From Nitrospira sp. (GTDB lineage Bacteria; Nitrospirota; Nitrospiria; Nitrospirales; Nitrospiraceae): DNA of 64,000 nt. The notes under the pieces were generated by a model. It ran no database searches. It worked only from the letters and a program-made list of their open reading frames with translations, and was not told the origin of the DNA. The stretch spans positions 558,001-622,000 of the forward strand of contig CP054184.1 of the NCBI GenBank assembly GCA_015709715.1, written 5' to 3'. This document shows, piece by piece, positions 2,914 to 17,840 of this stretch. The stretch's first letter is position 1; each line of letters begins with the position of its first letter. The position numbers and the translations under genes are program-made.

Positions 2914-3303
2914 TCATGCCCCTAAAAGGGACAGTACGAAGGAAAGAGGGTGCCGCGCGCCCTTAGCGATGTTGCACGATTGGCAGGAAAATCGGACGTT
3001 TTCAAGGCTATGAGCCCCACCCCTGCTGAGTGGCAAAACATGGTCCAGATGGGTGCGGCATTCGACCAGTTCACAGCAGCACCAATAGCAGCGCCCGCCT
3101 TGCCTCATGCGGAGTACTGCGAGCTGTGCAGCCGTGAGATGGTTGCTTGTGACCGTTCGCTGCTTTCGCTTGTATTTACACACCCTTACAGTGTCAGCGG
3201 TAACTCGTGCCGAATGCGCGATTCGAAGCGATGAGTGATGCGCCACCAAGTCAATATGGCTCAACGCACTCTCAGGAATTGGCCCAGATAAATACCGCCT
3301 CAT
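2914..3303 (-). CDS. HNH endonuclease
   Basis: Product of up to 129 residues; the first ~40 residues are uncertain and translation may start later. The HNH fold is clear: CYWC at about residues 72-75, the catalytic HLDHVLPLSRGG (about 85-96), an Asn about ten residues on, then CQSCN and KGA. This is the classic McrA-like zinc HNH arrangement, a metal-dependent DNA nuclease. It sits just upstream of the HTH/terminase-like gene. HNH nucleases beside terminases take part in genome packaging in some cos-type phages, but it could equally be a free-standing mobile endonuclease. Confidence 0.75.
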   Translation of the reverse strand: MRRYLSGPIPESALSHIDLVAHHSSLRIAHSARVTADTVRVCKYKRKQRTVTSNHLTAAQLAVLRMRQGGRCYWCCCELVECRTHLDHVLPLSRGGAHSLENVRFSCQSCNIAKGARHPLSFVLSLLGA

Positions 3304-7477: not shown

Positions 7478-7898
7478 CCCGCGCTCCTTTCGTGGGGTCG
7501 TGATAGCCGCTCATGAACGTCACCACGTCGTCGACGCTGTACGCGACGAGGGTCCGGGCTTTTGCGGCGCCCCAGCGCGTCAGCTCCCGGTCCTGTAGCC
7601 GCGTGGTCTTACCCCCCGGCGCCTTCACCTCAATCAGAAAAGCCTGCCCTGCGTAGCAGCCGACAATGTCCGGCCATCCGCTGGAGAAGAAGCCCCCGGG
7701 GACTTTTCGGGCATAGCACCCGACGAGTCCGTTGAGGTACTTGAGGATGTTGCCGGTAATAATCGACTCCTTAACCGTTCCTTTGACTGTAGGAACCCGC
7801 TCTTGTTTCCCGCCCGGTACTGGTCGTCGCAATCCGACACGAGCTGACACACGTCCGCCGGCTGCTCCCCCTTCGTCCACTGTGCAATCTCCCTCCAT
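7470..7898 (-). CDS. VRR-NUC domain nuclease
   Basis: The C-terminal ~105 residues match the VRR-NUC (PD-(D/E)XK superfamily) pattern: VKESIITGNILKYLNGL, then GWPDIVGCYAGQAFLIEVKAP (Asp of SGWPD; Glu and Lys of IEVK), then GGKTTRLQDRELTRW. Such nucleases process Holliday-like or flap DNA, and phage copies often sit beside helicases as here. The ATG at 7898 has a strong GGAGGGCAGC ribosome site; the frame is open back to a GTG at 7958. The N-terminal ~35 residues overlap another frame and look non-native, so the true start or a frameshift near 7,790 is uncertain. Confidence 0.75.
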   Translation of the reverse strand: MEGDCTVDEGGAAGGRVSARVGLRRPVPGGKQERVPTVKGTVKESIITGNILKYLNGLVGCYARKVPGGFFSSGWPDIVGCYAGQAFLIEVKAPGGKTTRLQDRELTRWGAAKARTLVAYSVDDVVTFMSGYHDPTKGARDE

Positions 7899-7954: not shown

Positions 7955-8413
7955 TCACCAGCCCGACAATAACGGTTGCATCTTTCCGCTCTCGTAGGCC
8001 TTGGCAATCATCGGCACCACATGCTCCGAAACCGTCTTCCCGTCAGGCATGACAATGTTCGCCATAAATTCATTCTCGAAGGTCGCAATCTTTGACTCGA
8101 CCGCTTCGAGCTTCGCTTTCACGACCAGGGCGAGGGATCGCCACAGCCTCCGCACTTCCTGCTCATAGAGACGCCGCGCATCGTCCTGTGAACGAGCCTT
8201 CCCATAGCGCGGATTGACCGTGAATCGCTTTTCCTGGATGTCCGGCAGCTCCAAGACGAACCGGACATAACGGCCATGGACAAAGAATTGAATCCGGGCA
8301 TCCTTTGACGACCATCCCGAGACGAATTGTTCCGCTCCATACTTCCGGAGCAATGTTTCAATTTCGGCCCGCGACCGCTCCACTGGCACGCTTGTATTCT
8401 CTGCAAAGCTCAT
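7955..8413 (-). CDS. Conserved phage protein, function unknown
   Basis: Product of 152 residues starting MSFAENTSVPVERSRAEIET. GGAGGG lies upstream and the ATGA overlaps the helicase stop. It shows the layout of a widespread phage family: AEIETLLRKYGAEQFVSGW (about residues 15-33), a beta-rich centre with RYVRFVLELPD, then RRLWRSLALVVKAKLEAVES and EFMANIVMPDG. No activity is assigned to this family. It typically sits among replication and recombination genes, as here between the UvrD-like helicase and the VRR-NUC nuclease. Confidence 0.75.
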   Translation of the reverse strand: MSFAENTSVPVERSRAEIETLLRKYGAEQFVSGWSSKDARIQFFVHGRYVRFVLELPDIQEKRFTVNPRYGKARSQDDARRLYEQEVRRLWRSLALVVKAKLEAVESKIATFENEFMANIVMPDGKTVSEHVVPMIAKAYESGKMQPLLSGW

Positions 8414-10902
8414 AAATACCCTCCTATGCTCAGTCCCACCGGTTGCGCCCAATACAGGGCTTCTTTTGCTCTCGTCATCCCGACATAAAACATTCTCCGT
8501 ACGGCATCCTGTGCCTCCCCCGGCGACGTCCATTCCCGATACCCCGCCGGCGAGAGGTCCGGAAACAGGACCACAATGTCGGCCTCACCCCCTTTGACAG
8601 AATTGTGCACGACGGCCCCGCCAGAGATGTAATGGTGGTGCGGAAGCACCTCAAGGCTAAAAACATCCCCGGCGAACGGCTCGCACAAAACAGTGACTTG
8701 ATGCCACGTCGGCTTATTGCCTCCTTTCTTGCGGCAACAGAACGCATCCTGGACAACGGGGATCTCCATGTATTGGTCGATCACGTTTGCCGCTGCCGTT
8801 AAGAACATGCCGCGCTGATTCGTTCTCCCGCGCCCTCGTGTGCACAGCGGTTCGCCTTCTATGAGCCCACGATCTCGCAATAGCTGCATCGCCCGATCCG
8901 CAACGCACTCAGATATGAGCGTGTCGTGAATGGTATGGAGTTCCTCCGACTTGAATAATCTGGACTTGCAGGCCTGAAATGTGAGCCCTGGTAATCCATA
9001 TCGACATTGAATCTGCATCTCGGCAATGTACGCCTCACGCGCCGTTTCATAGACCCCCAGAATCCATCCCGCGTCAGCCTGCTCCGTCGACATACGGCCT
9101 TTAAGACCTCCGGACGCATACGGCCGTTTACCCGATGTGCACATGCCGACTCTCCACCAATTCCCGCGCCGCATGAGGTAGACAATCCACTTATTGAAAA
9201 AGGATTCCGTGAAGCGCACCTGCATCCGATGTGTCGGCGTTACGCGCGTCCGGCTCCCCCTTGTGGTGATTGTCAGCAGGGGTCCATCGTAAGGATTCCT
9301 TGCAACCACAAAGGGGTACCCCATCTCCTTCCTCGGCATGCCTTTCTTGCTGTTTCGTCCTCCCCATACGAGCCGGTTGCAGTTGTCCATATAACTGGCA
9401 AGCCTGTGCTTGTTTGGATCGAGTCGCCCGATTGGCACATACCCCTCAGTAGTGAGCACTGGTTCATCTCCGGGGGAGCAATGAATCGTACCCAGGATGA
9501 TTTGCGGCGCCTTCGTCAGAGCCGCCGCGCCTCGAGATTCGATCACATTGCAGGCGTAGCGCATCGGCCGTTCATAGGTGCTCAAGAGATGTCCCCGCAA
9601 CCACTCCAAATCGCCCGCCGTCACGCGCTCCGCCGTCTCGTCCCCCACAAACCACTTCTCAAGGTCCTCCGTCTCCACCAGCGCCTTCATGGTCTCATCG
9701 GCTTCGGCCTTCCGTCGCATGTCCGTCTTGGCTCCATGCCGGAACACGCCGTCCGATTCGAGGCACCCCGCCCAGGCCCACAGGTCGCGGTACGTCCACC
9801 AGGATTCGCCGCGCGCCACCTTCCCGAACGCCAGCACCCGCTCCGAGGCGCCGATCGTGCCCGCCTTGGTATGCAGCGGATTCCAGTCCCCGCGTGTCCG
9901 TCTGTACGGGTTATGAAACGGCATGCCCCAGTCCCGCAGCTGCCGCTTGAGGGGATCCAGGAAGAAGGAGCAGGACGCTAGGAAGGCCACGGTCTTGCCT
10001 TCGCCCAGCCAGGCTTCGAGCTGATCCTTGATCGGTGCCGGGTATTGGTAATTCAGGTAGATGCTATCGACTTCGCCCTGAAAGGCTCTGGGCTTGTAGT
10101 CCACCTGGAACCGGTGAGGCATTTGCTCAATCCACTTGACCGCCGCCCCATGCACCGCCACCGGGACACGGTAGGATTGTCCGAGTACCCGTATCTGGTC
10201 CGCCGGCACAGCCGGATACAGGAAGGCGTCAGGCGTGGCTCCTTTGAACGTATAAATGCACTGATCCGGGTCTCCGACCAAATACAGCCGTTCGCAACTT
10301 TCGCCCCACCAGCGGGCAAGATGGAGTTCCAGGGGGCTAAAGTCTTGCACCTCATCCAGGAAGAACGCCGCGGCCTCATGCGGGATCGGAAGCCGTTGGG
10401 TCACGCACAGGTCGATCAGGTCGGTAAAATCCATCGTGAACGTCTGCGACTTGAAATCCTTCCAGTCCTCCGCGAAGGCCTGGACTCGCATCGGCCAGGC
10501 ATCTGGCTCTATGCGCAGCCCACGCAGCCGATTGAGTTCCTGGAGGAGGAGATCGCCCTCCTTCGTCTCGCCCCCTTCAATGTGTCCATAGGGGTCGTCT
10601 ATATCGCTGGCAATGCCACCAAATCCCCAGGAGGGATGCTCTGCGTTCCAATCCTTCAGGAGATTGCCGGCAACCAGCTTCGGCCGATCCAATGCCCGAT
10701 AACACAGGGCATGCAGCGTGCCGACCTGATCGTCATTCAGTGGGAGCTGCCGGGATACCAGTTCCTTCGCCGCCGCCCTCGTGAAGCTCGAGACCAGCAC
10801 CGCCTCGCTCCCGTAGTCCCGGCAGGCTGTGGCAATCAGCCCCGATAATGCTGTAGTTTTCCCGGCATTAGGTGCCAGGAGGGCCAAACATTCTGTATTC
10901 AC
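8410..10902 (-). CDS. UvrD/Rep-like superfamily 1 helicase interrupted by an intein
   Basis: From a GTG at 10902 (GTGA overlap with the HNH gene) the precursor is 830 residues. The helicase part is residues 1-474 and 768-830, giving 537 residues after splicing. Motifs: P-loop PNAGKT (11-16, lacking the usual first Gly), SFTRAAAKEL (39-48), Walker B DEVQD (183-187), GDPDQ (210-214), GQSYRVP (241-247), motif V GTIH|SVKGGEAD (split by the intein), and VGMTRAKEALY near the C-terminus. It would unwind DNA during phage replication or recombination. A longer frame to 11397 exists, but its extra 165 residues are a shadow of the HNH gene. Confidence 0.85.
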   Translation of the reverse strand: MNTECLALLAPNAGKTTALSGLIATACRDYGSEAVLVSSFTRAAAKELVSRQLPLNDDQVGTLHALCYRALDRPKLVAGNLLKDWNAEHPSWGFGGIASDIDDPYGHIEGGETKEGDLLLQELNRLRGLRIEPDAWPMRVQAFAEDWKDFKSQTFTMDFTDLIDLCVTQRLPIPHEAAAFFLDEVQDFSPLELHLARWWGESCERLYLVGDPDQCIYTFKGATPDAFLYPAVPADQIRVLGQSYRVPVAVHGAAVKWIEQMPHRFQVDYKPRAFQGEVDSIYLNYQYPAPIKDQLEAWLGEGKTVAFLASCSFFLDPLKRQLRDWGMPFHNPYRRTRGDWNPLHTKAGTIGASERVLAFGKVARGESWWTYRDLWAWAGCLESDGVFRHGAKTDMRRKAEADETMKALVETEDLEKWFVGDETAERVTAGDLEWLRGHLLSTYERPMRYACNVIESRGAAALTKAPQIILGTIHCSPGDEPVLTTEGYVPIGRLDPNKHRLASYMDNCNRLVWGGRNSKKGMPRKEMGYPFVVARNPYDGPLLTITTRGSRTRVTPTHRMQVRFTESFFNKWIVYLMRRGNWWRVGMCTSGKRPYASGGLKGRMSTEQADAGWILGVYETAREAYIAEMQIQCRYGLPGLTFQACKSRLFKSEELHTIHDTLISECVADRAMQLLRDRGLIEGEPLCTRGRGRTNQRGMFLTAAANVIDQYMEIPVVQDAFCCRKKGGNKPTWHQVTVLCEPFAGDVFSLEVLPHHHYISGGAVVHNSVKGGEADIVVLFPDLSPAGYREWTSPGEAQDAVRRMFYVGMTRAKEALYWAQPVGLSIGGYL
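8602..9480 (-). mobile_element. Intein (293 residues) in helicase motif V
   Basis: The intein runs from Cys1 (CSPGDEPVLTTEGYVPIG, block A) to the terminal VVHN, followed by extein Ser. Block B is RVTPTHRMQV (TxxH at intein residues 81-84); block F/G is GDVFSLEVLPHHHYISGGAVVHN. Removing it restores GTIH-SVKGGEAD, the conserved motif V, exactly in frame. The ~180 residues between the splicing blocks (WILGVYETAREAYIAEMQ, YGLPGLTF) look like a homing-endonuclease-type insertion of a kind I cannot place. All splice-junction residues are present, so it should be active. Confidence 0.9.
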
Positions 10903-11336
10903 GCCTTCCCGACAACAGAACCACCCCCCTTCGATGCAAAGCGCGCGAGGTTGTGAAGTCGCGCGTGTTGAGATTGACTGGATAGCACTTCTAAATTTTC
11001 CGGCCTGTTGTCGCGCTTGTCCCCGTTTAAGTGGTGGACTATCTCTCCTGAACGTAGAGGCCTTCCGATCGTTCGTTGCGCGACTAAGCGATGTTGATGT
11101 TTTCCGTCCTGCTTGATGTATGACAAACCGAGGCCTCTTCCTCGCTGCATGTCCCCGCGCTTTTTCGCAGATTGCTTGGAAATTTCGGCATTGCGAGAAG
11201 TATCGAGACATGCTCGACGTTGACATTCCAGGTCGCAATATTTCTGCATCCGCTTCTTGTAAGGAGGGGTGAAATACCCTCCACACCATGAACAGTTTCT
11301 TTCCTTTGCTAAGCGAGGGCTTCTCATTCCGCCCAT
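10899..11336 (-). CDS. HNH homing endonuclease
   Basis: Product of 145 residues. The N-terminal zinc module is CSWCGG (residues 15-20) with CDLEC (about 34-38). The C-terminal HNH core is GRPLRSGEIVHHLNGDKRDN (about 91-110) followed by RPENLEVLSSQSQHARLH. The core is nearly the same as in the HNH gene at 16064-16444. The stop overlaps the helicase GTG start (GTGA), placing the endonuclease directly before the helicase P-loop, which begins only ten residues into that gene. It is probably a free-standing homing endonuclease that targets this locus. Confidence 0.85.
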   Translation of the reverse strand: MGGMRSPRLAKERNCSWCGGYFTPPYKKRMQKYCDLECQRRACLDTSRNAEISKQSAKKRGDMQRGRGLGLSYIKQDGKHQHRLVAQRTIGRPLRSGEIVHHLNGDKRDNRPENLEVLSSQSQHARLHNLARFASKGGGSVVGKA

Positions 11337-11676
11337 ACATGTCTCCTTTCTTGGTTTCTGTACTCATTCGACACCTAATAAATTCAACAGGTTGCAAGCC
11401 CTCTGACTCACTCTGACTCAGCGGACTTTCCTAATTGATTCAATGAGTTGAGATCAAAAAATGCCGACTTGAGTACAGGAGTCAGAGAAATTAAATTCTG
11501 CATCGTGCGTCCGGCCAATTTTTTTCTCTGACTCACTGACTCTTTGTACTCAACTCTGGCATGAATCTTGATATTAAGAGAGAATTGCATAAGTCGTTGA
11601 TTTCATTCATTTCACAGGTACAGTACTTGTACGGCTCTTTGGAGTCAGAGCCGAGTACTCGGTTTTTCCTCTGTAC
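11337..11676. repeat. Iteron-like intergenic region, candidate replication origin
   Basis: A 340-bp gap between the HNH/helicase genes and the primase gene. CTCTGACTCA occurs at 11401-11410, 11411-11420 and 11526-11535, CTGACTC at 11536-11542, and inverted GAGTCAGAG at 11479-11487 and 11642-11650. A second family, GAGTACA/TGTACTC, occurs at 11471, 11545 and 11673, plus the palindrome CCGAGTACTCGG at 11651-11662. A/T-rich stretches (11430-11500) lie between. It also carries operator-like site 4. This layout fits a replication origin or a complex control region. Confidence 0.5.
11618..11632. promoter_or_regulatory. Operator-like site 4 (GTACAGTACTTGTAC)
   Basis: Contains the exact GTACAGTAC core at 11618-11626, followed by a further GTAC half-site. 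It lies in the iteron-rich gap downstream of the primase gene and upstream of the HNH and helicase genes on the minus strand, so it could regulate their transcription. Confidence 0.5.
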
Positions 11677-14553: not shown

Positions 14554-14718
14554 CTACACCGATGCCTCTTCGACGAACCGATTCCATTCATTGATCTGGT
14601 CACGTCCGCATCCCGCGCAGAGCCGCATCCCGCGCACGTGGTACAGTTCATTATCCTTCACGCGGCACAGACAGACCGGGCATTGCGAGAGTCGATTATC
14701 CTCCCCCATCTCGTTCAT
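14554..14718 (-). CDS. Small zinc-ribbon protein
   Basis: Product of 54 residues starting MNEMGEDNRLSQCPVCLCRV. CPVC and CAGC pairs make a complete four-Cys zinc ribbon. AAAGGAGTG precedes the ATG, which overlaps the helicase stop as ATGA. The longer upstream frame is a shadow of the helicase gene. It is probably co-translated with the SNF2-type helicase; function unknown. Confidence 0.65.
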   Translation of the reverse strand: MNEMGEDNRLSQCPVCLCRVKDNELYHVRGMRLCAGCGRDQINEWNRFVEEASV

Positions 14719-16037
14719 GCCTTCACTCCTTTCAACACGCTCTCGACCACGTCCTGGCGTGCCTCGAGCGCCTTGTAGACCGCCTCGTCGACCGTGTCCC
14801 GTGCAACCAGATGGAAATAGGTCACATTCCTGTTTTGGCCTGGCCTGTGCGTACGCTTCCGCGCCTGGAGATACTCGCCCAGAGAGAACCCGAGCGAGTA
14901 GAAGACGCAATATCGCGCCCGCACAAGATTAATCCCGACACCGCCGCTCTGGATCTGGACCGCAAGAACTGGCGCCGCACCCGATTGCCAAGCAGCAAGT
15001 TCGTTTTTGCGTCCAGACAATTCGAGGGAGGCCCGCCCAAGAGCAGCGGCCACCGTATGCACGGCGTCGAGGTCGTGGTGAAATCGGCAGAAGATAACGA
15101 TGGGTTCTTCATCGTTCAGGTCCTCCATAAGATCGGCCAGCGCGTCCTGCTTGGCCGAATCCACTTGTACGAGTTCTCCATCGACGCCCGTTCCGACGTC
15201 ATGGTCCTTCTTTGCCCAGCCGCTGGCAATTTGCTGCAATCGCAGCAGTCGCGTCAGGGCATTGCTCGCTGTGACCGTCCCATCGGCTACCCCCACCACA
15301 AACTCATCTTTCAGGGTCTTATAGAGCCGCATGGCATAGGCCGACAGCCGCACAGGCCGGACCACGTCGACGGCTTCCGGCAGGTTTTGCACATCCACCG
15401 ATGTGACCCGGTAGGCGATGGAATAGAATTTCTTCTGCAGATCGTCCTGGTTTTCGTATCCCAGGACTTGATGATTGCCGTAGCCACCCATCTTGGCGTA
15501 GCGTGCCCGGAATGCCGTGAAGCTGGTCCCAAAGATCCCCTTGTCCAGGAATCGGTACTGCGCGTACACATCGAGGGGACTGTGAGGCATCGGGGTCCCT
15601 GTCAGGCACAACCGGTTCGGCGTGACATCGCCCAGGCGGGACACGAACATAGCCGCTTTCCCGCCAGGGGCTTTGATCCGGTGGGACTCGTCACAAATCA
15701 CGGCATCCCAGCCGGCCCGCAGGAGGGTATTGCTCATGCCGTCCCTCCAAGCCGCGTCATAGTTCAGAATGACGATCGCCGGTGTGGACCGTGCCCGCTG
15801 CAGCGTCAGGAACGTCGCCAGGGCCTCACTGCGCTGCTTCGTGGTTCCATCATCGAGGGGGAGGCATCCCACTGGCCGCGCACCATGCCGCTCGAACTCC
15901 GCCGGCCACACTTGGACCACTGACTTAGGACACAGAATCAAGGTGCGCATCCATCCTTTATTGATAACAATATCGACCGCAATTTTTGACTTGCGTTCAG
16001 CCCGTCCCCATGTCCAGCGCGAGCATAACGGCTCCAC
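14715..16037 (-). CDS. SNF2-type helicase, C-terminal part of a split gene
   Basis: Residues from K16 on are a normal SNF2 ATPase: KSKIAVDIV, LILCPKSVVQVW, CDESH (DEAH-like box, 115-119), LTGTPMPHS, and in lobe 2 QSGGVGINLV and QARKRTHRPGQ. The first 15 residues (from a GTG at 16037) are not native. The missing P-loop start, AVMLALDMGTG, is encoded in another frame at 16032-16000, and then a 7-nt insertion TGAACGC (15999-15993) breaks the frame before the Walker lysine codon (15992-15990). Either the gene is broken, the 7 nt is a sequence error, or expression needs frameshifting. Partner: the N-terminal fragment at 16446-16796. Confidence 0.75.
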   Translation of the reverse strand: MEPLCSRWTWGRAERKSKIAVDIVINKGWMRTLILCPKSVVQVWPAEFERHGARPVGCLPLDDGTTKQRSEALATFLTLQRARSTPAIVILNYDAAWRDGMSNTLLRAGWDAVICDESHRIKAPGGKAAMFVSRLGDVTPNRLCLTGTPMPHSPLDVYAQYRFLDKGIFGTSFTAFRARYAKMGGYGNHQVLGYENQDDLQKKFYSIAYRVTSVDVQNLPEAVDVVRPVRLSAYAMRLYKTLKDEFVVGVADGTVTASNALTRLLRLQQIASGWAKKDHDVGTGVDGELVQVDSAKQDALADLMEDLNDEEPIVIFCRFHHDLDAVHTVAAALGRASLELSGRKNELAAWQSGAAPVLAVQIQSGGVGINLVRARYCVFYSLGFSLGEYLQARKRTHRPGQNRNVTYFHLVARDTVDEAVYKALEARQDVVESVLKGVKA

Positions 16038-16454
16038 GCGGACGGGGACGGGTAGACGCCTCCTTAACGTCCATGGAAGTGATGCCTGGCATGTTCAGCC
16101 CTCGTCATCAATTGAAGGTTTTCCGGTCGGTTGTCTCGCTTATCTTCGTTTTTATGATGCACGATTTCATCTGATCGAAGCGGCCGTCCGATGATGCGCT
16201 CCATCACCACACGATGCTCATGCCGCCCATAGCACTTTCGATAGGTCTTCCGCTCTCCCCGATCAATATGCGCCGCGCGAATCTTGTCCTTAAATCGTCT
16301 CCCGACCTCGGCGTTGCGCCGAGGGTTATTGTGCTTTTTCAGCCAGCACTGGCGGGAGCAGTAGAGCCGTGGCGTCCTCTCCGGATAGGACCAGGCCGTA
16401 AATTCACGCTGGCAGGTTGGGCACATGGTCGTAATCTTCGGCACCTTACAGACC
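16033..16454 (-). mobile_element. 422-bp HNH-carrying insertion splitting the SNF2 helicase gene
   Basis: The N-terminal fragment ends FAIDMLGG and then L-stop; the natural continuation (GCC GTT ATG, AVMLALDMGTG) resumes at 16032. A GGA codon lies at both edges (16457-16455 and 16035-16033), and removing the 422 bp between them joins the coding frame. Almost the whole insert is the HNH gene (381 bp), leaving too little sequence for a group I intron core. It is therefore best read as a free-standing homing endonuclease gene inserted into the helicase gene. Confidence 0.6.
16064..16444 (-). CDS. HNH homing endonuclease inside the SNF2 helicase gene
   Basis: Product of 126 residues from a GTG at 16444, with GGGAGG inside the end of the helicase fragment serving as ribosome site. 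Zinc module CPTCQREF (residues 8-15) and YCSRQCW (about 28-34). HNH core GRPLRSDEIVHHKNEDKRDN (about 87-106) with RPENLQLMTRAEHARHH at the end. It is clearly related to the HNH protein at 10899-11336. The stop codon is followed at once by AAGGAGG, which may help re-initiate on the helicase C-terminal part. Confidence 0.85.
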   Translation of the reverse strand: MPKITTMCPTCQREFTAWSYPERTPRLYCSRQCWLKKHNNPRRNAEVGRRFKDKIRAAHIDRGERKTYRKCYGRHEHRVVMERIIGRPLRSDEIVHHKNEDKRDNRPENLQLMTRAEHARHHFHGR

Positions 16455-16796
16455 TCCCAGCATATCGATCGCGAACCAGAATGCCCGCGCCTGATGTGGC
16501 CAGGGCGTGGTTTTGGTCTGCGGAATGTTCGGCAGGTTTTCCGCCGTCTTCAACTCGGCCGCTTTGGCGATCCGCTCTGCCTCCACGAGCAGCGCCGCGG
16601 CATGATCGCTCCACGTGCTGGTTTCCGAAGGAATCGCGTCAAAGACCGCCCGCGCAGCATGCGGCGTCGGCGGGTAGACCCAGACATGCAGCTCCTTGTT
16701 CCAGCGCGCGCCGGGAACCCCTTTCAGGGCATCCTTCAGCGCAAACGGCGCCCGGACGGCCAGCTTGTCATCGGTGAGATACACATGGCAGAGCAT
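16446..16796 (-). CDS. SNF2-type helicase, N-terminal fragment
   Basis: Product of 116 residues. The N-terminal ~65 residues form a small alpha/beta substrate-binding-like module (GARWNKELHVWVYPPTPHAA). The end, TTPWPHQARAFWFAIDMLGG, is the Q-motif-like segment that precedes the P-loop in SNF2 helicases. The frame then stops two codons later inside the HNH insertion. Together with the C-terminal part it would make a ~550-residue SNF2 protein, a usual size for phage members. Alone it has no ATPase site. Confidence 0.75.
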   Translation of the reverse strand: MLCHVYLTDDKLAVRAPFALKDALKGVPGARWNKELHVWVYPPTPHAARAVFDAIPSETSTWSDHAAALLVEAERIAKAAELKTAENLPNIPQTKTTPWPHQARAFWFAIDMLGGL

Positions 16797-17763: not shown

Positions 17764-17840
17764 TGGTCGGGGCGAGAGGATTTGAACCTCTGACATCCTG
17801 CTCCCAAAGCAGGCGCGCTACCAGGCTGCGCTACGCCCCG
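17764..17840 (-). tRNA. tRNA-Pro(UGG)
   Basis: 77 nt including an encoded CCA. Acceptor stem CGGGGCG/CGCCCCG, D-arm GCGC...GCGC, anticodon arm CCTGC-TTTGGGA-GCAGG with anticodon TGG, T-arm AGAGG-TTCAAAT-CCTCT. The 3' end faces the phage element to the left, so this is the probable attachment site. The 5' end overlaps the last ten bases of rdgB. Confidence 0.97.

Follow-up and report, generated by a model that had tools for sequence, protein, structure and literature searches.

To our knowledge, very few natural genes are known in which translational bypassing is efficient. The mobA gene of phage T4 and the bypass sequence next to it were reportedly first described by Bonocora and others in 2011. 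In this system a homing endonuclease gene adjoins or splits an essential replication gene, gene 60, whose translation involves the bypass of 50 nt, and the bypassed stretch is believed to shield the gene from the endonuclease, according to the parts of PMC5009743 that deal with it; MobA is listed as an HNH enzyme in the relevant part of PMC2988022. Related arrangements include ShiLan, where an out-of-frame HNH gene lies in mycobacteriophage DNA methylases and is deemed neither an intron nor an intein in the section of PMC11855218 devoted to it, and the synthetic "stop-hops" mentioned in PMC5009743, in which matched codons flank a stop and 9 nt stand for one residue. Here, we describe an SNF2 helicase gene in a prophage-like region of a Nitrospira sp. 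genome (GenBank assembly GCA_015709715.1, contig CP054184.1, positions 558,001 to 622,000 of the forward strand; this whole stretch of 64,000 nt is called the window), in which a 7-nt insert carrying a stop codon interrupts the Walker A motif downstream of an HNH endonuclease gene, and we report that such inserts recur in the SNF2 helicases of phages. No published account of helicase inserts of this kind was found in the open-access literature.

The window is part of a single 4.16-Mb contig, and the genome is 99.97% complete. The prophage-like region adjoins a tRNA-Pro gene, and its SNF2 helicase gene runs leftward, all the window features given below being on the reverse strand. The 5' part of the gene (16446..16796) is an open reading frame (ORF) of 116 codons, which ends with ..FAIDMLGGL* at a TAA just before the start of an HNH_3 endonuclease gene, here called gene A (16064..16444; GTG start; Pfam HNH_3, 9e-14; PHROG HNH endonuclease families); the GGAGG upstream of gene A comes from the LGG codons of the helicase. 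Between gene A and the insert, a short segment in the P-loop frame encodes ..RGAVMLALDMGTG (16000..16074), for which ATG 16074 or ATG 16026 is the putative start. The frame AVMLALDMGTG opens at 16032 and closes with GGC at 16002-16000, where it is followed by TGAACGC (15993..15999), that is, TGA A CGC between the Gly and the Lys codons of Walker A. KSKIAVDIV restarts at 15992 in a different frame, which stays open for 425 codons to the normal stop at 14715 and encodes the helicase core (14715..15992; Pfam SNF2-rel_dom, 1.7e-24, and Helicase_C, 1.2e-9; PHROG 62, DNA helicase). An earlier note on this DNA, which had read the locus as an SNF2 helicase interrupted by an HNH ORF and by a 7-nt break in Walker A, is exact in all its positions. 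The gene is truly split, its first 116 codons being separate, and translation would presumably have to begin anew at ATG 16074 or 16026.

Among the loci compared (given by their L numbers), an uninterrupted SNF2 relative without the insert, L002, has a core 74% identical to that of the window, while its N-terminal part is 59% identical, at the amino acid level, to the 5' part of the window gene; the corresponding identity to L003 is 46%. The latter (core 60% identical) has the same layout as the window, with an HNH gene decayed by internal deletion and TGAGGA in the P-loop, and its DNA is near-identical to the window across the P-loop half, i.e., the restart segment. A relative of the gene is also present in a Nitrospira metagenome-assembled genome. 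The 3' part of the window core (about 14715-15050) is far closer to other phages than the rest, with 94% amino acid identity in L050 and a further close match in L045, and judging from these comparisons the gene looks mosaic.

HNH genes are frequently housed in group I introns. It is nevertheless extremely unlikely that either the insert or the 422-bp HNH stretch as a whole is removed from the RNA, by an intron or by editing, given that no intron RNA family matched in the window at Rfam gathering thresholds, where only tRNA did, that the inserts of all the alleles described here (4 to 9 nt) are below the size of any known intron, and that the HNH gene, where present at all, is located upstream of the stop. 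A group I intron was rejected on the lack of an Rfam gathering match in the window. The GGA codons at 16457-16455 and 16035-16033, 422 nt apart, are candidate insert edges only, and the stretch between them is largely occupied by the HNH ORF, which bears out the view of the earlier note that no room is left for an intron ribozyme. That note had also likened the locus to T4 gene 60; the parallel is a sound lead for the 7-nt break, though not for the GGA-flanked 422-bp stretch. An in-frame intein is not what the SNF2 gene contains either, with stops both at the HNH edge and at the 7-nt insert.

The break is neither a sequencing error nor a product of chance, because it recurs in a UvrD-type helicase of the same prophage and in 30 further SNF2 alleles, including those of named phages; sequencing error was also rejected on account of the single complete contig. 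Over all loci, a regular-expression search that allowed gaps of 0 to 30 nt between the Gly and Lys codons of the P-loop yielded 82 intact and 36 inserted motifs, with insert lengths of 4 to 9 nt only. The intact P-loops include 8 chromosomal SNF2 genes from relatives of the window's genome (L010-L022). Once near-copies had been dropped (L001, L046, L044, L078, L085, L177, and L183), 29 inserted alleles were left, which together with the GenBank phages NatCom_6392 (TGAGC) and Fusobacterium phage phiPaco (TGAGA) make up 31 distinct SNF2 alleles; the expression demanded GAN before the P-loop ATG/TGY and missed NatCom_6392 as well as the phages StAB and Stiles. In a sample where relatives were collected by core protein alone and no stop was asked for (80 loci kept of 596, 78 of them with the P-loop region), 9 of the 78 loci carried an insert, and the stop came first in all 9. 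A DNA scan of viral contigs for a P-loop, a stop plus 4 nt, and Lys returned 21 stretches, corresponding to 15 SNF2 genes and 6 chance matches, and another scan returned 6, namely, 5 copies of one repeated unrelated sequence and 1 real case (L070). Among 395 genomes of the phylum the SNF2 pattern gave no further case, the pattern requiring Lys-Thr and being unable to match the Lys-Ser of the window.

Every insert opens with an in-frame stop directly after GGT or GGC (31/31). Among the 29 alleles the stop is TGA in 20, TAG in 6, and TAA in 3, and it is preceded by GGT in 21 and by GGC in 8; GGA or GGG is used at that place by 20 of the 82 intact alleles. Over the 31 alleles, 14 inserts are 7 nt long, 11 are 5 nt, 3 are 6 nt, and one each is 4, 8, and 9 nt, so that all three frames are covered; the triplet before Lys is GGN in 23, AGN in 6, CGC in 1, and GAC in 1. 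Frameshifting, which the earlier note had considered together with re-initiation, would have to be allele specific, with +1 shifts for 4 and 7 nt, -1 shifts for 5 and 8 nt, and readthrough for 6 and 9 nt by turns, yielding one to three extra P-loop residues (e.g., MGLG-EG-KT). In general, +1 shifting is known to be stimulated when a stop comes right behind the shift codon, and the 7-nt inserts account for 14 of the 31; yet no one mechanism spans lengths of 4 to 9 nt, the extra residues would fall in the loop where the enzyme is under the tightest constraint, and GGY-UGA should not be slippery for tRNA-Gly. We therefore regard this explanation as improbable, and a single common +1 frameshift was rejected because of the range of lengths.

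One account of a stop that breaks Walker A every time would be that the inserted alleles, window copies included, are dead, the endonuclease having broken a helicase that the phage manages without. The CGC landing triplet of the window would be in keeping with this account, as would an extra in-frame TAG at core codon 292 of the inserted allele L136, a possible sign of decay of that single copy. Against it, the downstream part of the gene, i.e., the core, is under purifying selection: the ratio of nonsynonymous to synonymous substitution rates (dN/dS), calculated by the NG86 method between alleles with the same insert, is 0.054 for L079/L088 (dS 0.43), 0.056 for L094/L174, and 0.11 for L074/L087; other inserted pairs that were computable gave 0.05 to 0.12, 4 of 15 pairs being saturated. 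Moreover, 26 of the 29 inserted cores are at least 390 codons long; two of the other 3, L071 and L090, are cut short by the end of their contigs, which leaves L136 as the one broken core. The helicase motifs are conserved in the inserted cores, and 18 of the 29 alleles hold the insert with no HNH gene nearby. Simple gene death was rejected for the family as a whole on the dN/dS of 0.05 to 0.11 between same-insert alleles, and we consider death of the inserted alleles unlikely. The alternative raised in the earlier note, that the gene is dead unless re-initiation and frameshifting rescue it, is accordingly not supported for the family, given three same-insert pairs, although the window's own allele, for which the search turned up no same-insert sister from which to gauge selection after insertion, may still be dead. 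The two window copies may be inefficient or dead; their landing triplets are poor (CGC and GCC), and their HNH genes are intact and perhaps recent.

Selection acts upstream of the insert as well. Over the 31 codons before it, synonymous and nonsynonymous differences number 6 and 0 in L079/L088, 6 and 2 in L074/L087, and 0 and 2 in L094/L174, and are clear evidence of selection on that side in two of the three pairs. From the Lys codon to the first possible in-frame start, the same three pairs show 11 synonymous differences versus 1 nonsynonymous difference in the core frame, and in 21 of the 29 alleles no ATG, GTG, or TTG occurs between the last in-frame stop and Lys. Because the codons ahead of any start are conserved as protein and so many alleles are devoid of a start, ribosomes seem to enter the core frame from upstream. 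The same observations speak against a split enzyme, in which a working helicase would be assembled from a re-initiated core and a short N-terminal peptide that terminates at the stop; in addition, the break would sit inside the phosphate-binding loop. A TTG does overlap the stop in TGAGN inserts after GGT (L093, L179, and L189) and is the start used in the phiPaco annotation, in-frame GTG starts lie upstream of both window cores, and split phage genes can work, as indicated in part of PMC2988022. All in all, a split enzyme appears quite unlikely. Release of the ribosome at the GGY before the stop and resumption at Lys, by contrast, fits all the alleles, because lengths of 4 to 9 nt fall in all three frames.

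HNH genes, searched with a profile built from nine HNH proteins of these loci, lie within 1.5 kb upstream of 11 of the 29 inserted alleles versus 1 of the 82 intact ones (Fisher p 7e-7, a value that is too small because the rows of one lineage are not independent). Across relatives the presence of the HNH gene varies, but the stop-bearing junction persists. On a tree of 102 core proteins, 28 of them inserted and the chromosomal SNF2 genes L010-L022 left out, the insert state requires at least 19 changes, 14 of which are forced by starred branches; the insert is therefore scattered over the helicase tree, with a few clades sharing it. Two loci show the traces of this mobility. When L178 is compared with L092, the upstream nuclease gene is near-identical, the sequence between the 3' end of that gene and the insert has been replaced, and identity then returns. 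In L070 (around 7693-7800, reverse strand), the 5' end of the helicase occurs twice: its own copy, decayed and broken by a 17-nt duplication, precedes the HNH gene, and a divergent copy follows that gene and ends at the insert. Both patterns are those expected if a tract was co-converted from a resistant donor and the right edge of the tract fell at a presumed cut site. Tract replacement beside an endonuclease gene, as in flank co-conversion, and a scattered distribution are also features of the free-standing seg/mob homing endonucleases of T4, as far as they are treated in PMC2988022; unlike in those systems, the presumed resistant allele here contains a stop and persists in many phages lacking the endonuclease gene.

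A different configuration is found in Corynebacterium phage StAB (L171), where an HNH gene is present and the P-loop is uninserted but rearranged to GLGMGKT, while its relative Stiles (L172), which has no HNH gene, reads GMGLGKT. The Walker A motif of StAB is perhaps another way of altering the endonuclease target.

The surroundings of the insert carry conserved signals. In the 22 members of the main family, GAT, GGC, and GGY are found beside the insert in 22, 22, and 22 cases versus 26, 8, and 55 of 73 intact alleles, respectively. On average, the ribosome-binding site matches the 16S end over 9.25 nt in 24 inserted alleles versus 5.52 nt in the 73 intact ones; perhaps a strong Shine-Dalgarno sequence offsets an inefficient downstream step. 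The inserted loci L071-L094 and L118-L169 display an unusually complete Shine-Dalgarno sequence (GGAGGUGAU). Synonymous sites 18 to 66 nt upstream of the insert vary in inserted and intact alleles alike, and some of the conserved signals could be due to a short tract inherited in common. A helix that might form between the start and takeoff regions showed double changes in 0 of 20 pairs.

In the reading that we favor and consider moderately probable, an immunity junction linked to HNH endonucleases would be spreading among phage SNF2 helicases and be tolerated through translational bypass in the form of a Gly-to-Gly stop-hop. HNH homing endonucleases would have landed on the DNA of the helicase Walker A motif, leaving a recombination tract with its right edge inside the motif and consisting, in order, of an optional HNH gene, a ribosome-binding site, N-terminal codons to ..GATATGGGCTTRGGY, the stop, 0 to 3 nt, and usually the native Gly codon before Lys. 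The insert most likely gives the allele resistance to the endonuclease, as suggested by the HNH association and by the altered P-loop DNA of StAB compared with Stiles. A ribosome with peptidyl-tRNA-Gly at GGY and the stop in its A site would release, slide 4 to 9 nt, and re-pair on the triplet just before Lys, mostly GGN, to give a scarless protein (..MGLG-KT..). Under bypass, the product would depend on the stop, the Gly takeoff codon, and the GATATGGGC block. In the window the SNF2 hop would run from GGC over TGA A CGC to AAG, and the UvrD hop, one codon earlier, from ACC over TAA T GCC to GGG. The signs of bypass are indirect, namely, the dN/dS values and the absent starts, and point to it at the sequence level. 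That the whole amounts to a natural, programmed stop-hop of 4 to 9 nt, from Gly to Gly over UGA, UAG, or UAA, in the Walker A motif of SNF2-type phage helicases of dozens of lineages, serving as an immunity scar against HNH endonucleases and having its own signals (GAUAUGGGCUURGGY before the stop and a strong ribosome-binding site), is in our judgment slightly better than an even proposition.

Besides the non-independence of the HNH counts and the possible decay of L136, several observations weigh against this proposal. The triplet before Lys is not a Gly codon in 8 of the 31 alleles, among which is the CGC of the window, so that a matched landing as in T4 is not general, and where Gly is present it may be leftover native sequence. 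The consensus RNA fold has an energy of -3.84 kcal/mol, and covariation is seen in 0 of 20 pairs. The window has no known sister sharing its TGAACGC insert. Finally, scanning viral contigs for a 7-nt insert in GPPGT motifs, the type broken in the UvrD gene, gave 0 matches.

The closest known system is T4 gene 60. As in mobA/gene 60, to the extent that it is described in the sources cited above, a stop-bearing noncoding stretch lies downstream, near the presumed target, and the stop directly follows a Gly takeoff codon; as in the T4 cassette, an endonuclease gene lies beside or inside the host gene in the window SNF2 and UvrD loci and in the 11 HNH-associated SNF2 alleles. Unlike in gene 60, the gap measures 4 to 9 nt rather than 50, takeoff occurs within Walker A (in most alleles some 31 codons into the gene), both codons are Gly in 23 of 31 only and identical triplets are fewer, and the arrangement occurs in many lineages, often with no endonuclease gene. 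Gene 60 also uses a nascent-peptide signal and stem-loops; the consensus RNA fold of the helicase inserts shows no covariation. Since matched takeoff and landing codons, which help to define that system, are lacking in 8 of the 31 alleles, we suggest by analogy that the helicase inserts work like T4 gene 60, rather than being the same. The 6-nt inserts share the Gly, stop, Gly geometry of the synthetic stop-hops, as outlined in the part of PMC5009743 on these constructs; unlike the latter, the helicase arrangement is natural, recurrent, and apparently selected.

The second break of the prophage lies in a UvrD-type helicase gene. Its probable original start (11340..11367; ATG AGT ACA GAA ACC ..), recognized by comparison with the intact starts in L048, L050, and L052, would have been cut off by HNH_3 endonuclease gene B (10899..11336), which is 44 to 45% identical to gene A at the amino acid level. 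A restart segment in the P-loop frame follows (10871..10915; ..EYRMFGPPGT), putatively starting at TTG 10915 or ATG 10891, then the 7-nt insert TAATGCC in Walker A (10864..10870; GPPGT, TAA T GCC, GKTT) and, from GKTT on, the helicase core (8410..10863; identified from sequence, Pfam, and PHROG), which contains an in-frame intein-like insert. The homologues L048-L052, HNH-free at that place, have an intact GPPGTGKTT. As in ShiLan, one frame is open through HNH gene B, a mobile HNH gene lies in a conserved part of a phage gene, and an HNH query from here matches the methylases concerned; unlike ShiLan, which merely lengthens the host frame and for which the pertinent section of PMC11855218 describes no stop-bearing second insert, the SNF2 gene has a TAA at the HNH edge and a TGA in Walker A, and the open frame of the UvrD locus reads a different P-loop. 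In the 395 genomes of the phylum, the UvrD pattern returned the window's own UvrD and 3 chance matches and nothing else, and among the translations listed for the 18 viral loci matched by HNH (L026-L043) no other broken Walker A motif was apparent.

Other features of the window were noted in passing. The intein-like insert of the UvrD gene (8602-9480) lies between ..LGTIH and SVKGGEAD, begins with CSPGDEP, and ends with VVHN; L052 has a related insert at another helicase site (DEDQ, then C). A third HNH-like ORF (2914-3303; CYWCCCE..DHVLPLSRGG..), recognized from its translation alone, is situated near the left end of the prophage. The tRNA-Pro gene (17764-17840) stands beside the prophage module, which also adjoins a tRNA-like sequence in the relative G005 (L007, about 195-270), and no second copy of the tRNA-Pro end was found in the window.

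Inserts of this kind are present in several named phages, the records of which were partly chosen for their suspicious look and give no measure of frequency: TAGGA in Erysipelothrix phage phi1605, TAGGT in Paenibacillus phage Pd_22F (HNH present) and in phage IMGVR 15682261, TGAC in Ruminococcus phages NatCom_23091 and NatCom_29429 (HNH present), TGAAAAGGC in NatCom_38182, and TGAGGGC in Streptococcus phage Javan422. In Pd_22F and phi1605 the annotated helicase begins downstream of the break, and in phiPaco the annotation comprises a 31-codon ORF and a helicase starting from the overlapping TTG; gene finders truncate or split such helicases, and the trait is hidden in phage annotations. Should the hop prove real, a far shorter and simpler form of bypassing would be at work in dozens of phage genes, the minimal requirements of bypassing would become open to comparative study, and resistance to an endonuclease would be seen to be attainable through an insert that ribosomes pass over.

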